Shown here: positions 306 to 11,656 of the stretch, piece by piece | How the letters are laid out: every line of letters starts with the position of its first letter | How positions within the stretch are numbered: position 1 is the first letter of the stretch | Assembly (NCBI GenBank): GCA_020628855.1 | Contig: JAHDEL010000003.1 | Coordinates: 49,578 to 113,577 of the forward strand | Source: Saprospiraceae bacterium | Lineage (GTDB): Bacteria > Bacteroidota > Bacteroidia > Chitinophagales > Saprospiraceae | Reading direction: 5' to 3' | DNA: 64,000 nucleotides | The notes under the pieces: model-generated | What the model saw: the letters and a program-made list of their open reading frames with translations, nothing else | What the model was told of the DNA's origin: nothing | The model's database searches: none | Translations under genes and position numbers: made by a program

Positions 306-1597
306 GAATATGTGTTATATATCAAATTGAATACGTGTTCTTTAAATTGATCTCCCCTATCTCTATAATTTTTAAAAAGGTCAAAACTTGCACAAGCGGG
401 TGATAACAGCACTCTGTCTCCCTCTTCTCCTTCGCTTATCACAGTTTCCATTACTGCTTCCAGACGAGCGCAACTCTTAAGAGGTATTCCAAAATCTTGG
501 TAATACGACATCAGCTTTGTATTATCCGAACCAAGACAGATGATCATCTTGACTTTGGATTTAACCAAATCATCTAAGATGCTATAATCATTGCCTTTAT
601 CCACTCCACCAACTATCCAAAACAGAGGAGTTTCTGTCCCCTGCAAAGCATAATAGGTCGCATCTACATTCGTCGCTTTACTATCATTGATATAGACCAT
701 GCCATTAATTCTTGCAACTTCCTCCATTCGATGCGGCAGTCCTTGATAGTTCTTAAGGCCTTCAATCACCTCTGATTCCTGCAACCCTAAAGTCTTAGCA
801 ACAGCAAGCACCACCATTGCATTAAAGTGATTATGCTTACCTCGAAAAGGAAATGTAGCTAAGGCCTGCTTATTTGAAAGTAATTGATCAGCATTACTAA
901 ATTGAACAGGACATTGCTTTGCTTGAATCACAGAGAGTCTTCGAGAAATCAATTCATCTTCTGAATTGTAGATGATCGTATCACTTACTCCCTGATTTCT
1001 TGCAATCCTCATCTTCGCATCAGCATATTCTTCAATACTCGAATTGTAACGATCCAAATGATCAGCAGTGATATTAAGCACAACGCTTACATCTGGCTTA
1101 AATTCAGTGATATCTTCCAGCTGAAAACTACTGAGCTCCAAGACCACTATTTCGCTATCTCGATTAGCTAGTAACCTGCAAAAACTAACGCCAAAATTGC
1201 CACCGACCTGTACATCTTTTCCTTGATGCTTCAAGACCTGATATATCATGTTGGTGACAGTAGATTTTCCATTGCTTCCAGTAATGCCAATTATTTGAGC
1301 TTTACTGTATCGGAAACCATATTCAATCTCACCGATGATATCCACTCCTTGTGTTTTCAAGGTCTGTATAACTGCAGAAGAGTTAGGTATTCCTGGACTC
1401 TTAATGACAAGTTTTGCCTTTCCAATAATGTCAATACTATGTCCATTTTCTTCAAAACGGATACTATGTTTTTCTAAGAGTGTCTTCGTATCTGAATGAA
1501 TCTCTCCATGATCAGAAACAAACACTTCATTAGCATTTTTCTTTGCAAGTAATGCTGCACCTATTGCACTTTCTCCACTTCCAAGTACCGCTATCAT
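293..1597 (-). CDS. murD: UDP-N-acetylmuramoylalanine--D-glutamate ligase MurD
   Basis: This cytoplasmic Mur ligase adds D-Glu to UDP-MurNAc-L-Ala using ATP. The 434-residue product has the N-terminal nucleotide fold ([17 protein letters not shown]), the P-loop GITGSNGKST at about 104-113, the central LNITADHLDRY motif, the NDSKATN motif of the C-terminal domain and the closing LLSPACASFD motif. The reading frame is open 19 codons further upstream, but the ATG at 1597 is chosen. It overlaps the mraY stop as TAATG, the classic coupling arrangement, and gives the usual family length and N-terminus. Upstream is mraY; downstream ftsW starts inside this gene. No key residue appears missing. Confidence 0.96.
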   Translation of the reverse strand: MIAVLGSGESAIGAALLAKKNANEVFVSDHGEIHSDTKTLLEKHSIRFEENGHSIDIIGKAKLVIKSPGIPNSSAVIQTLKTQGVDIIGEIEYGFRYSKAQIIGITGSNGKSTVTNMIYQVLKHQGKDVQVGGNFGVSFCRLLANRDSEIVVLELSSFQLEDITEFKPDVSVVLNITADHLDRYNSSIEEYADAKMRIARNQGVSDTIIYNSEDELISRRLSVIQAKQCPVQFSNADQLLSNKQALATFPFRGKHNHFNAMVVLAVAKTLGLQESEVIEGLKNYQGLPHRMEEVARINGMVYINDSKATNVDATYYALQGTETPLFWIVGGVDKGNDYSILDDLVKSKVKMIICLGSDNTKLMSYYQDFGIPLKSCARLEAVMETVISEGEEGDRVLLSPACASFDLFKNYRDRGDQFKEHVFNLIYNTYSCLQ

Positions 1598-2862
1598 TAT
1601 CGGACTTTTAGAGTTATGATACTTAAGAGCGCCAAGATGATTCCCACAATCCAAAACCGCGTAACTATCTTGACTTCATGATAGCCTTTCTTTTGATAGT
1701 GGTGATGAAGAGGAGACATTAAGAAGACTCTTCGACCTTCACCAAACTTTCTCTTTGTATACTTGAAGTAACTTACTTGGATTATCACTGAAAGAGTTTC
1801 TATGAAAAATATTCCACAGAGCAACGGCAAGAGGAGTTCCTTTCTTAATAGAATTGCTAATGACGCCACTATACCACCGATGGCCAAACTACCAGTGTCA
1901 CCCATAAATACTCTAGCTGGAAATGCATTGTACCACAAAAAACCAGTACATGCCCCTACAAAACAAGCCGAATACACAACTAGCTCTGCGCTAAATGGTA
2001 TGTAGAGAATATTAAGATAATCAGCAAAAAAAGCATTACCAGATACATAGGCAAAAATGCCGAGAGTTCCAGCAATAATTGCTGACAAGCCCGCCAGAAG
2101 TCCATCTAATCCATCAGTCAGATTAGCTCCGTTACTCACTCCCGTGACTATAAATATTACAATTGGAATAAAAATGATCCACACGAAGGACTCCTTGTTC
2201 TCTTTCAAAAACCAAATAAAATCACTATAAGAAATAGTGTTATTTTTAAAAAAAGGAATATTCGTAATTGATGACTTAGCATAAGCCATTTCTCGAGAGA
2301 TAGAAACACCAACTGGTGACTGTTCTTCTAACTCAAATGTCTTTATAATGTGATAACCTTGATCAACCGCAACCTTGACTGGCATTCTGACAACAACATC
2401 TTCATGTAACACCATTGTCACACCGACAATTAAGCCTAGTCCAATTTGACCAATCACCTTAAATCGTCCTTTCAGACCTTCCTTATTCTTCTTAAATACT
2501 TTGATGTAGTCATCCGCAAATCCAATAGCCGCCATCCAGACGGTAGTAACCAGCATAAGGATGATATAAATATTATCCAATCGTGCAAACAACAAGCATG
2601 GAACAAGGATCGCGGCAATAATTATTAATCCACCCATCGTTGGAGTTCCCTCCTTCAACTTTTGACCATCAAGACCAAGTTCGCGGACCGTCTCGCCTAC
2701 TTGCAACCTTTTCAAAGATCGTATGATTCGATCACCAAATACAGTGGCAACTAAAAGTGAAACTAATACTGCCAACCCCGATCGAAACGATATATATTGA
2801 AATAGACTTGCGCCTGGCAAGCCATAATTCTTCTCTAAGAATTCAAATAAATAATAGAGCAT
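1597..2862 (-). CDS. mraY: Phospho-N-acetylmuramoyl-pentapeptide transferase MraY
   Basis: This integral membrane enzyme transfers phospho-MurNAc-pentapeptide to undecaprenyl phosphate, making lipid I. Visible signatures are EGTPTMGGL near residue 72, the catalytic-loop [17 protein letters not shown] near 115, NLTDGLDGL near 248, [13 protein letters not shown], and the histidine loop [15 protein letters not shown] near 383. At 421 residues it is about 60 longer than the 360-residue proteobacterial enzyme. The excess is a hydrophilic stretch at roughly 155-215, which I believe is normal for Bacteroidota. Its ATG lies 18 bases after the T-run of a strong terminator-like hairpin that separates it from murE, so its transcription may be conditional. 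It couples to murD through a TAATG overlap. Confidence 0.96.
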
Positions 2863-2878
2863 AACCCGTATTACTTTT

Positions 2879-2941
2879 TAAAAAAAACAGTTGACAGCGG
2901 GGATCTAAAACGTTTTCCAGATGTATCCCACTGCAACTGTT
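2879..2941 (-). terminator. Large terminator/attenuator-like hairpin between murE and mraY
   Basis: On the minus strand the arms AACAGTTG (2941-2934) and CAACTGTT (2893-2886) pair perfectly. They are extended inward by CAG/CTG and GGGAT/ATCCC with one- or two-base bulges, and the loop contains the self-complementary AAAACGTTTT. The 3' arm runs straight into T8 (2887-2880), giving the textbook form of an intrinsic terminator. Only 17 bases separate the T-run from the mraY ATG, too few for a full promoter. Transcription of mraY must therefore read through, start upstream, or be regulated here. The structure is seen directly; the attenuation role is inference. Confidence 0.75.
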
Positions 2942-2979
2942 AAAACCAACCTGAGAATGATAATAGAACCTACTCTTAA

Positions 2980-4428
2980 TTATCTTCTGGAAAATTCCAT
3001 TACCTTTCTCTTATCATCGAATGGATGTTTAACTCCATTGATTTCCTGATATTTTTCATGTCCTTTGCCTGCTATTAACAACACATCTCCTGCATTCAGA
3101 AGCATTAATCCCATCTTGATCCCTTGAGCTCTATCGCTAATTCGAAAGACTCTTGACTCATCTTCCAGTTCTATTCCTTGTTCCATATCATCAAGAATAC
3201 TTTCTGGATTCTCAGATCGAGGATTATCAGATGTTAATACTACCTTGTCACTATATCTTGCTGCAATTGCCGCCATTATGGGTCGCTTCTTTGCATCACG
3301 ATCTCCGCCACAACCGACTACTGTAATCACATTAGCTGCACTTACTGCTCGTATTGTCTTGAGTACATTTTCTAATGCGTCAGGAGTGTGAGCATAATCA
3401 ACAATCGCAAATGCTTTTGACTTCTCTACTTCAATGAGATCAAACCTACCCTCAGGAGCTCTCACTATAGAAAGTGCTGAAAGTATCTCCAATGTACTCC
3501 CTGCTTCTAATTGCTCTAAAATTGCAAAAGACGCTAGAAGATTATACCCATTAAACTCTCCTACGAGTCGAAAAAAAGCTTCTACACCATTCACGGACAT
3601 CTGGAGTCCACCGAGGCCAGAATCAATTATCCTACCCTTGTAATCACAACTCTGGCGAAATCCATAGTACACCTGCTTAGCTTGCGTATTCTGCAGCATT
3701 ATCCTGCCATTTTTATCATCAATATTGACAATGGCAACTGCATCAGGCTTCAGACTGTCAAAGAACATTTTCTTCACTCTGATATACTCAGAGAAAGTAT
3801 TATGATAATCAAGATGATCATGAGTAATATTGGTAAATACCGCAATATCAAAATCAACTTGAGATATCCTATTTTGGTGAATGGCATGAGAACTCACTTC
3901 CATTATCACATGTGTACATTCAGCATCTCGCATTCTTGCAAATAGTTGCTGAAGAGCAATAACATCTGGCGTAGTCAATTCACTTGGCTCTTCTTTATCA
4001 TCTATACAAATCTTCACTGTAGATATCAATCCACAAGTCAGACCTAGTGTCTTCAATGATTGATGCAATATTGTCCCCACCGTTGTTTTACCATTAGTCC
4101 CAGTGATACCAACTATTTCTAGTTCTTCACTTGGATAATCGTAGTAAAAAGCAGCAATATTACCAACCAAGTTTGCTTCATTCTCAACCTTTAGAATTCC
4201 ATCTCTATTCGGAAAATCATCCTGAGTAACTAGACACAACACAGCACCGTTATCAATCGCTCTCTGGACATAATCATGACCATCCGCATTTACACCCTTC
4301 TGCGCTATAAAGAGATATCCTGGCTTAACCTTCCGGCTATCTATTGCGATTCCAGCAACTTGCTGACTTCCGTCAAACTTTCCCTCTTTGATAGTTACTA
4401 CTTCTAAGATTTCTTCTAAAAGCTTCAC
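2980..4428 (-). CDS. murE: UDP-N-acetylmuramoyl-L-alanyl-D-glutamate--2,6-diaminopimelate ligase MurE
   Basis: This cytoplasmic ATP-dependent Mur ligase adds the third stem-peptide residue to UDP-MurNAc-L-Ala-D-Glu. The 482-residue protein has the substrate-binding N-terminal domain (AIDSRKVKPGYLFIA), the P-loop GITGTNGKTT at 107-116, the HDHLDYH motif, and a C-terminal domain carrying DNPRSENP at 401-408. DNPR is the established signature of ligases that use meso-diaminopimelate, so the cell wall is predicted to be mDAP type. It follows the penicillin-binding protein gene after a 35-base gap and is separated from mraY by 117 bases holding the terminator-like hairpin. Confidence 0.96.
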   Translation of the reverse strand: MKLLEEILEVVTIKEGKFDGSQQVAGIAIDSRKVKPGYLFIAQKGVNADGHDYVQRAIDNGAVLCLVTQDDFPNRDGILKVENEANLVGNIAAFYYDYPSEELEIVGITGTNGKTTVGTILHQSLKTLGLTCGLISTVKICIDDKEEPSELTTPDVIALQQLFARMRDAECTHVIMEVSSHAIHQNRISQVDFDIAVFTNITHDHLDYHNTFSEYIRVKKMFFDSLKPDAVAIVNIDDKNGRIMLQNTQAKQVYYGFRQSCDYKGRIIDSGLGGLQMSVNGVEAFFRLVGEFNGYNLLASFAILEQLEAGSTLEILSALSIVRAPEGRFDLIEVEKSKAFAIVDYAHTPDALENVLKTIRAVSAANVITVVGCGGDRDAKKRPIMAAIAARYSDKVVLTSDNPRSENPESILDDMEQGIELEDESRVFRISDRAQGIKMGLMLLNAGDVLLIAGKGHEKYQEINGVKHPFDDKRKVMEFSRR

Positions 4429-8235: not shown

Positions 8236-8273
8236 GCTTTATTGTCAACGACAGAACAAACTTAACAAGGATT

Positions 8274-9244: not shown

Positions 9245-11656
9245 TCAAGCAAATCTATCAGGTTCTGCTTCTTGCATAAGTTTAATAACGGTCTCAACCA
9301 CGTCTTCAGTTTGTGGTTTTGAATAATAGTCACCTTCATCTCCATATGGGGGTCTATGATCACTTGCCGTCAGAGTCAATGGCTGGGAATCTAAACTATA
9401 ATAACCTCCTTGATTTTCAATTACTTCTTGTAAAATGTACGCAGATGCTCCTCCGGGAACATCTTCATCAACAATTAACAAACGATTAGTTTTTGACAGA
9501 GATTGACCAATATGATGCTCCATATCAAAAGGCAAGAGCGTCTGGACATCAATGACTTCAACAGTAATACCTACTGATTGTAATAGAGGCACCGCAGCCA
9601 TCACCACTTTCACACAAGACCCATAAGTTACTATTGTCACATCGTCACCCTCTTGCAGTGTTTCTGGGCTGCCTAAGGCTACTGTATATTCTCCTATATT
9701 ATCTGGAAGTGTCTCCTTCAATCTATATGCATTCAGAGGTTCAACTACAACAGCTGGATCACTTGATTGGATAAGTGTCTGATACATACCAGCAGCTTGA
9801 ACAAAATTTCGTGGCACACAAATATGCATCCCTCTTAATGTAGTCAGCAACATACCCATATGTGAGCCTGAATGCCAAATGCCTTCTAGTCTATGCCCTC
9901 TCGTTCTGATTATTGCTGGAGCCATTTGCAATCCTGCAGATCGATATCTTATGGTAGCAAGATCATCTGTTAGGGGCGCTAATCCATAGACGAGATAGTC
10001 CAAGTACTGGATTTCTGCAATTGGTCTCAGACCCCTCATGGCTAAGCCAATCGCTTGTCCTACGATGGTCCATTCTCTGATCCCAGTATCAAAAACTCTT
10101 GATTCACCATACTTTTCTTGTAAGCCTGCAAAACCTTGATTCACATCACCAATATTACCTACATCTTCTCCAAAAGCATATGCCAATGGATTTACACTAA
10201 ATAAGTAATCAAAGTATGCATTGACTACTTGATAGCCAGAGACATTCTTAGATTCGTCAGAATAGATCGGTCGAACAACTGGAATTTGAGTTGCGTTTCG
10301 CTCTGTTTCACTATAGAGATGGGTGTGATATGCTTGAGCACCTTGTGCTTCCTCTCTATTCAAAATAGTCTGAATCCCATCCCCGTATGGAATATCTTCA
10401 ACCTCAGCTCTCGAACGAATTTGTCTGAGTACTTTGACTAGATCATAACGCATCGGGACATATAGATTCTTTATCTCATTAATCTCCTGCTTGAATGCAT
10501 CTTCGGAAAGCTCTAGCAGAGCCAGAATCTCATTTCTTAATTCTTCAATTGGCTGATAGAAATTATCCCACGCTGTTTTCTTTCCTTCTTTTACAAACAA
10601 TTTGGCTTGCTGATGCAATTCTTCCAACTCTTCTTCTGACGCTATACCTGACATCACAATCCACTCTTTGAACTTGAGATTGCAATCATAAGCTCTTTCC
10701 CACTCTAGTCTTTCTTTAGGTTTGTATCGTTCGTGCGAACCAGATGTCGAATGTCCTTGAGGCTGAGTAAGCTCCTCCACATGAACAACTACAGGGCGCC
10801 GTTCCGACCTAGCCAAAGTCGTTGCTTTTTCATAGGCATTATTAAGTGCAACATAGTCCCAACCGTTCACCTTTATAATATATAGCCCATCACCTTCTGC
10901 ATTCTTTTCAAAACCTGAGATGACTTCAGAAATACTACCCTTTGTGGTTTGATATTTCTTTGGGACAGAGATTCCATAACCATCATCCCAAACTGAAATT
11001 ACCATTGGGACCTGAGTTACGGCAGCAGCGTTTAATGTTTCCCAAAAGACTCCTTCAGAAGTGCTTGCATCTCCAATTGTGCAAAAAACAATTTCATCTC
11101 CAGAACCTAAATTTGGATAGTGCTCTCTAACTTCTTCATTTTCTCTTAACTTATTTGAGGCTAAAGCCAAACCTAAGGCTCGCGCCATTTGACCACCTGT
11201 TGATGATATATCGGCACTTATATTATAAGAGTTCCGTAGGTCAAGATAATTATCTTCCTGGTCAACAAAAGGTGTCGCAAAGTGACTATTCATCTGTCGA
11301 CCTGCAGAAAAAGGGTCATGATTTACATCGGCATATAACTGAGCAAATAAGTCTTCAACCTTTGTTAGACCAAGAGCCATGATCATTGTCTGGTCTCTAT
11401 AGTATCCAGATCGAAAATCACCTTTTTCAAAAAATCGTGAAAGGACTACTTGAGGAAGTTCTTTGCCGTCACCAACAATACCAAATTTTGCTTTACCAGT
11501 CAAAACCTCTTTTCTACAGAGCAATGAAGCTTCTCGGCTCACTTGACATATCCACAAATCCTTAAGAACTGCCTCTTTAAAGGATTCAAGGGAATTATCC
11601 TGATGAAGAGTATTTATAACTAAATCCTGATAACGATACGCTTTAGCTTGGCTCAA
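9245..11656 (-). CDS. 2-oxoacid dehydrogenase E1, fused alpha and beta subunits
   Basis: This thiamine-diphosphate enzyme decarboxylates a 2-oxoacid and transfers the acyl group to lipoyl-E2. The 803-residue product is a head-to-tail fusion. The alpha domain (about 60-400) contains the ThDP motif beginning GDAS at 195 and ending DDGYGIS at 224-230, and the phosphorylation-loop-like GSHERYKP. The beta domain (about 465-803) contains AYAFGEDVGNIGDVNQGF, GLRPIAEIQYLDYL and the closing VVETVIKLM. Fused E1 is frequent in Bacteroidota. The substrate (branched-chain acids or pyruvate) cannot be decided from sequence alone. E2 and E3 are not in the window. The 184-base upstream gap is shared with the divergent DUF1573 gene. 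Confidence 0.92.
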   Translation of the reverse strand: MSQAKAYRYQDLVINTLHQDNSLESFKEAVLKDLWICQVSREASLLCRKEVLTGKAKFGIVGDGKELPQVVLSRFFEKGDFRSGYYRDQTMIMALGLTKVEDLFAQLYADVNHDPFSAGRQMNSHFATPFVDQEDNYLDLRNSYNISADISSTGGQMARALGLALASNKLRENEEVREHYPNLGSGDEIVFCTIGDASTSEGVFWETLNAAAVTQVPMVISVWDDGYGISVPKKYQTTKGSISEVISGFEKNAEGDGLYIIKVNGWDYVALNNAYEKATTLARSERRPVVVHVEELTQPQGHSTSGSHERYKPKERLEWERAYDCNLKFKEWIVMSGIASEEELEELHQQAKLFVKEGKKTAWDNFYQPIEELRNEILALLELSEDAFKQEINEIKNLYVPMRYDLVKVLRQIRSRAEVEDIPYGDGIQTILNREEAQGAQAYHTHLYSETERNATQIPVVRPIYSDESKNVSGYQVVNAYFDYLFSVNPLAYAFGEDVGNIGDVNQGFAGLQEKYGESRVFDTGIREWTIVGQAIGLAMRGLRPIAEIQYLDYLVYGLAPLTDDLATIRYRSAGLQMAPAIIRTRGHRLEGIWHSGSHMGMLLTTLRGMHICVPRNFVQAAGMYQTLIQSSDPAVVVEPLNAYRLKETLPDNIGEYTVALGSPETLQEGDDVTIVTYGSCVKVVMAAVPLLQSVGITVEVIDVQTLLPFDMEHHIGQSLSKTNRLLIVDEDVPGGASAYILQEVIENQGGYYSLDSQPLTLTASDHRPPYGDEGDYYSKPQTEDVVETVIKLMQEAEPDRFA

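Follow-up and report, generated by a model that had tools for sequence, protein, structure and literature searches.

A conserved structured RNA with a terminator-type hairpin separates murE from mraY in the dcw operon of Saprospiraceae

Introduction

The dcw cluster is among the best-conserved bacterial operons, and little is known of its internal regulation. Among described RNAs, small RNAs derived from 3' UTRs and ending in intrinsic terminators lie directly after a stop codon and combine a conserved unpaired 5' part with a 3' terminator hairpin. Within the dcw cluster itself, UpsM of Rhodobacter sphaeroides is a terminator-ended leader RNA found in one family only; no separate promoter stands behind it, such that transcription of the cluster relies on readthrough (about 1 in 100), and an action in trans has been proposed (PMC5089854). 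A preliminary description of the locus studied here had called its hairpin a control point not known in any described dcw cluster, a claim against which UpsM, itself an RNA of the dcw leader that ends in a terminator, provides a precedent (PMC5089854). In Listeria, the riboswitch-derived small RNAs SreA and SreB show that termination at a cis element can yield an RNA that also acts in trans (PMC5089854).

Here we describe a structured RNA of nearly constant sequence that is located between murE and mraY in no fewer than 40 of the 112 Saprospiraceae genera sampled, together with phage-borne copies. Such an element could reveal how peptidoglycan precursor synthesis is coupled to other functions, and how phages exploit that coupling.

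Results

A terminator-type hairpin between murE and mraY

The window (the whole 64,000-nucleotide stretch of Saprospiraceae DNA that was analysed, in which all positions below are numbered) holds a dcw operon in the order mraZ-rsmH-ftsL-ftsI-murE-mraY-murD, with Pfam matches in the same order (MraZ, MraW (RsmH), FtsL-like, PBP, MurE, MraY, MurD). Inside this operon, between murE (2980..4428, minus strand; Pfam) and mraY (1597..2862, minus strand; Pfam), the first gene 3' of the terminator, lies a terminator-type hairpin. On the minus strand its basal stem P2 pairs AACAGUUGCAGUGGG (2941-2927) with CCCCGCUGUCAACUGUU (2902-2886), both arms being supported by fold and covariation. The apical stem P3 (2903..2922 as a whole, minus strand; fold and covariation) consists of AUCUGGAA (2922-2915) and UUUUAGAU (2910-2903) capped by an AACG tetraloop, and is followed by the 3' arm of P2 and then by a T8 tract (2887-2880, minus strand, read from the sequence) that lies 17 nt from the mraY ATG (2862). 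The preliminary description had placed and described this inverted repeat, running into T8 17 nt upstream of the mraY start, correctly; what it took for a second self-complementary stretch in the loop, offering an alternative fold, is the continuation of the same hairpin as P3.

Folding of the 120-nt stretch, proposed at the outset as a check, gave -31.4 kcal/mol (z = -2.96; 1 of 200 shuffles equally good), and the hairpin by itself accounts for -25.2 kcal/mol. The locus has both parts of an intrinsic terminator, a stable hairpin and an immediate T tract, on the transcribed strand. A generic terminator scan misses it because that scan requires an uninterrupted stem and a loop of 3-8 nt.

The hairpin is half of a larger conserved element

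The region first flagged as the hairpin (2879-2941, minus strand) stands as a hairpin but not in its boundaries, as the conserved element extends from 2987 to 2879. This whole element (2879..2987, minus strand; covariance model R1 match, 107.6 bits) is about 110 nt long, with the hairpin as its 3' half. Its 5' part contains the stretch UAGGUUCUAUUAUCAUUCUCAGGUUGGUUUUAACAG (2937..2972, minus strand), which begins 7 nt after the murE stop codon (2982-2980) and holds most of the 28 columns that are invariant among 58 diverse copies. Mean pairwise identity across the 35-nt core is 95% (60 loci), as compared with 69% at codon positions 1 and 2 and 39% at third positions for the start of mraY. Peptide coding was rejected as the main constraint on the core, since it would demand invariant third codon positions as well, whatever the frame. 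A small 5' hairpin is likely from the sequences of the copies: it is clear in a divergent clade (AAUAGU-UGAGGG-ACUAUU), reads UAG-GUU-CUA in the main type, and is tentatively placed at 2961..2975 (minus strand; AUAG-GUU-CUAU type) in the window. Of the 95 main-type copies, 64 have AAAG and 12 have AACG as the apical loop, and most hairpins in relatives are followed on their 3' side by a T-rich tract, which is weak in a few (phage G610 and locus L145).

Covariation identifies the functional strand

Across the 58 copies the hairpin varies in sequence and keeps its pairs, with double changes at all 13 of the 13 tested pairs. Paired cells made up 93.1% in the alignment versus 77.1% in shuffles, the covariation score was 0.615 versus 0.301 in shuffles and 0.09-0.18 in slid versions, and 0 of 500 shuffles matched the real alignment on each of five measures; shuffled controls do not preserve relatedness whereas slid controls do, and the difference from the controls is large. 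Compensatory changes thus exceed those of shuffled controls, as in a conserved structured RNA. Alignment of the murE-mraY gap in relatives, which the preliminary description had put forward while holding that a stem not conserved in close relatives would count against it, recovered a conserved stem with compensatory changes. The copies contain many G-U pairs and few A-C mismatches, and the functional molecule is therefore RNA of the mraY-sense strand. Read in reverse, the core presumably resembles Fur boxes and part of the TPP riboswitch; we discarded this likeness, as its strand contradicts the covariation and Rfam gives no match.

The element occurs across Saprospiraceae

In the murE-mraY gap of Saprospiraceae, a near-identical AGNUAGGUUCUAUUAUCAUUCUCAGGUUGGUUUUAACAG is followed by a hairpin and usually by a T-rich tract, in relatives whose MurE and MraY are mostly just ~45-70% identical to those of the window. 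Allowing one mismatch, the 19-nt core CTATTATCATTCTCAGRTT occurs in 124 of 398 Saprospiraceae genomes and 40 of 112 sampled genera, almost always a short way 3' of the murE stop, and its reverse, used as a control, in none of the 398; a diverged form is frequent in genomes without the strict core (loci L243, L244, L256, L014 and L017). The Flavobacteria, Sphingobacteria and Cytophagales examined have mostly short gaps (from overlap to some tens of nucleotides) without the element. Across 298 genomes of the order, the main-type covariance model matched only Saprospiraceae, plus two marginal matches near 30 bits in other families that look like chance and were set aside. Rfam 15 returned no family at gathering threshold, the best matches at relaxed thresholds being weak eukaryotic miRNA/snoRNA models far below threshold, and a literature search found no publication on such an element, which is a previously uncatalogued structured RNA of Saprospiraceae lying between two cell-wall genes. 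A repeat or mobile element was also considered and rejected, the element being single-copy in the window's own genome and blastn of named phage and plasmid collections giving no match. Matches on other contigs were contig breaks in such gaps or 16-nt core matches elsewhere.

Two further observations were made during these searches. Gaps of another clade (L032, L034, L040, L257) hold a related-looking GGAGGGACUAUU in place of the core, with U-rich sequence and then a GC-rich hairpin behind it. At L154 2022-2040, a 16-nt core match in reverse orientation lies ~90 nt upstream of a large repeat protein gene and is probably due to chance.

Position, tandem arrays and promoters bear on attenuation of mraY

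The position of the element is fixed relative to the murE stop codon and not to mraY. From the murE stop to the core the median distance is 20 nt (<=30 nt in 67 of 97 copies), the stop often overlapping a conserved AUAUAAGA, and from the hairpin end to mraY it ranges from 0 to 683 nt with a median of 48. Five genomes (G109, G150, G238, G259 and G052) carry 2-5 tandem copies in one murE-mraY gap (array loci L142, L143, L145, L146 and L147). In G109 the element copies are 99-100% identical and their spacers 79%, a contrast absent from the other arrays that could stem from recent conversion.

The Bacteroidota-type primary-sigma promoter motif is TAnnTTTG. Searches for this motif type gave 0 matches upstream of the element in 95 stretches of 160 nt (6.0 expected from shuffles) and 0 between hairpin and mraY in 43 longer gaps (5.5 expected from shuffles); the earlier statement that no promoter lies between hairpin and mraY thus agrees with the window and with the longer gaps of relatives. 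With no Bacteroidota-type promoter found near the element, mraY is therefore probably reached by readthrough, and, at least where the hairpin adjoins mraY, transcription probably has to cross the terminator. In the window the motif occurs once before mraZ, at 8264, and once within murE, at 3448. The sequence at 8264, TAAGTTTG, lies 29 nt upstream of the mraZ start and is likely the dcw operon promoter. Elsewhere in the window, a single 803-aa reading frame at 9245-11656 resembles a fusion of the alpha and beta subunits of a 2-oxoacid dehydrogenase E1 component.

These data bear on whether the element is purely a cis attenuator of mraY and the genes downstream, its 5' part being a sensor (of a ligand, a protein or translation) that decides terminator formation. 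Such an attenuator would fit a terminator immediately 5' of mraY in the window and in many relatives (<=40 nt in 38 of 94 gaps), the absence of a promoter motif 3' of it, a long and aptamer-like invariant sequence and the single location in hosts. Against this, we found no conserved alternative (antiterminator) pairing able to break the terminator, though a conserved unpaired segment is present; the GUUG/UAAC mini-hairpin is too weak and is missing from the divergent clade; the distance to mraY differs by hundreds of nucleotides; up to five serial copies would multiply termination ahead of an essential gene; and phage copies sit at operon ends without mraY. We therefore regard a purely cis-acting element as rather unlikely. 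Of the attenuation first proposed to uncouple mraY from the upstream genes, the conserved terminator inside the dcw operon survives, but attenuation of mraY alone is insufficient because it leaves the invariant 5' stretch, the fixed place at murE, the arrays and the phage copies unexplained.

Phage copies lie behind late genes

Scanning IMG/VR revealed the complete element on two contigs. IMGVR_UViG_3300000976_000002 (60 kb) encodes a terminase and an integrase, and its element scores 87 bits; IMGVR_UViG_3300001202_000054 (43 kb) encodes a holin and an integrase, and its element scores 67 bits. The phage elements lie at L296 4223-4324 and L299 13376-13481. On IMGVR_UViG_3300000976_000002 the element is 3' of an M23 peptidase gene, a subtilase gene and a gene for a small secreted protein, with a second terminator-like hairpin between it and the next genes, and on IMGVR_UViG_3300001202_000054 it shares nucleotides with the stop codon of a DUF5675 gene, and an integrase gene runs convergently towards it. 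The copies follow lysis-type or other late genes, neither of them being the leader of a gene close downstream, and the stretches read on the two contigs contain neither murE nor mraY. Their stems are unlike those of the host, their core and AAAG loop are the same, and both lack one G of the UAGGUUC present in nearly all hosts. Wider and shorter patterns used for further viral copies gave nothing but chance matches.

A DNA-level site, whether an operator or the attachment site of a phage (attB on the host side, attP on the phage side), would account for the element adjoining a tyrosine-integrase gene in phage G610 and for the sequence that phage G609 and the host share up to the last murE codons (AAAGACATATAAGA). 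It is nonetheless very improbable, as DNA recognition does not require stem covariation with one-strand G-U pairs, no prophage occupies the gap in any genome read, and the integrases of G609 are ~10 kb from the element. The phage copies may additionally serve as attP.

A role confined to the murE 3' UTR, with the terminator and a bound protein protecting or processing the mRNA end and with neither regulation nor action in trans, would suit the fixed place behind an upstream stop codon in both hosts and phages, and the conserved tetraloop, like the unpaired core, could be where a protein binds. We think it improbable given that ordinary terminators do not need 30 invariant nucleotides and that the window species still must transcribe mraY through the element.

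As phage and tandem copies, the element exists independently of its usual operon setting, a property of trans-acting small RNAs, and because tandem copies and phage copies without mraY occur, the RNA itself appears to have a function.

Candidate targets of the core

Complements of the core were no more numerous in the window's genus than those of a reversed control, and with neither the end of murE nor the start of mraY did the core pair better than shuffles (z about 0). Among the 7 genomes of genus g64, 3 (loci L287, L288 and L289) carry TCTGAGAATGATAATAGAT, an exact 17-nt complement to part of the core, in the 5' UTR of a gene encoding a LysM-repeat protein, where the block was kept while its flanks diverged. 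We treat this putative target as a lead only and as within reach of chance, the number of chance matches expected in the scanned DNA being of order one.

Discussion

Building on the observed structure, strand, conservation and place of the element, on the lack of a recognisable promoter and on the tandem and phage copies, we favour, at a probability of roughly 0.48, a leaky terminator that ends a small RNA from the murE 3' UTR and allows readthrough into mraY, with the predicted RNA acting in trans. Partial termination, a stable small RNA and trans action are all three inferred from sequence. RNA polymerase coming from the dcw promoter would either halt at the hairpin and T8 or continue into mraY-murD and beyond. 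Halting would release an RNA of ~100 nt, possibly after processing close to the murE stop codon, that would consist of the invariant 5' part, for the most part unpaired, and a hairpin with a protective role. The invariant part would most likely act in trans, either as a base-pairing partner of other RNAs or as a protein-binding site, and would thereby signal to the rest of the cell how much the precursor half of the dcw operon is producing. As a pairing seed, a run of ~30 consecutive invariant nucleotides would be long; it could equally well be a binding site for a protein or a ligand.

Given its place between cell-wall genes, its tandem repetition and its carriage by phages, the element probably serves as a regulatory RNA in cell-wall synthesis. 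A fuller and more tentative proposal is that a family-specific small RNA of the murE 3' end, made by partial termination, might act in trans in envelope homeostasis, might have been amplified in tandem and might have been taken up by phages beside their lysis genes.

Comparison with known systems sets this proposal in context. As in 3'-UTR-derived small RNAs, an unpaired 5' part and a 3' hairpin follow a stop codon directly, but the element differs in lying inside its host operon and not at the end, in having a far longer invariant stretch and in that the processed RNA is putative. Termination in cis that releases a trans-acting RNA, as for SreA and SreB, is the model proposed here, although the present element has no recognised ligand domain and its trans role is a prediction. 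With UpsM it shares a terminator-ended dcw RNA, restriction to one family, the lack of a separate promoter behind it and a proposed trans role. UpsM, however, has its own promoter and forms the 5' leader ahead of mraZ, whereas the present element is internal and behind murE, and the covariance model found no copy before mraZ in the window, the location of a UpsM-type leader; the element also has another structure, tandem and phage copies and a Bacteroidota host. UpsM is therefore the nearest described case, with which the element has its logic in common and not its location.
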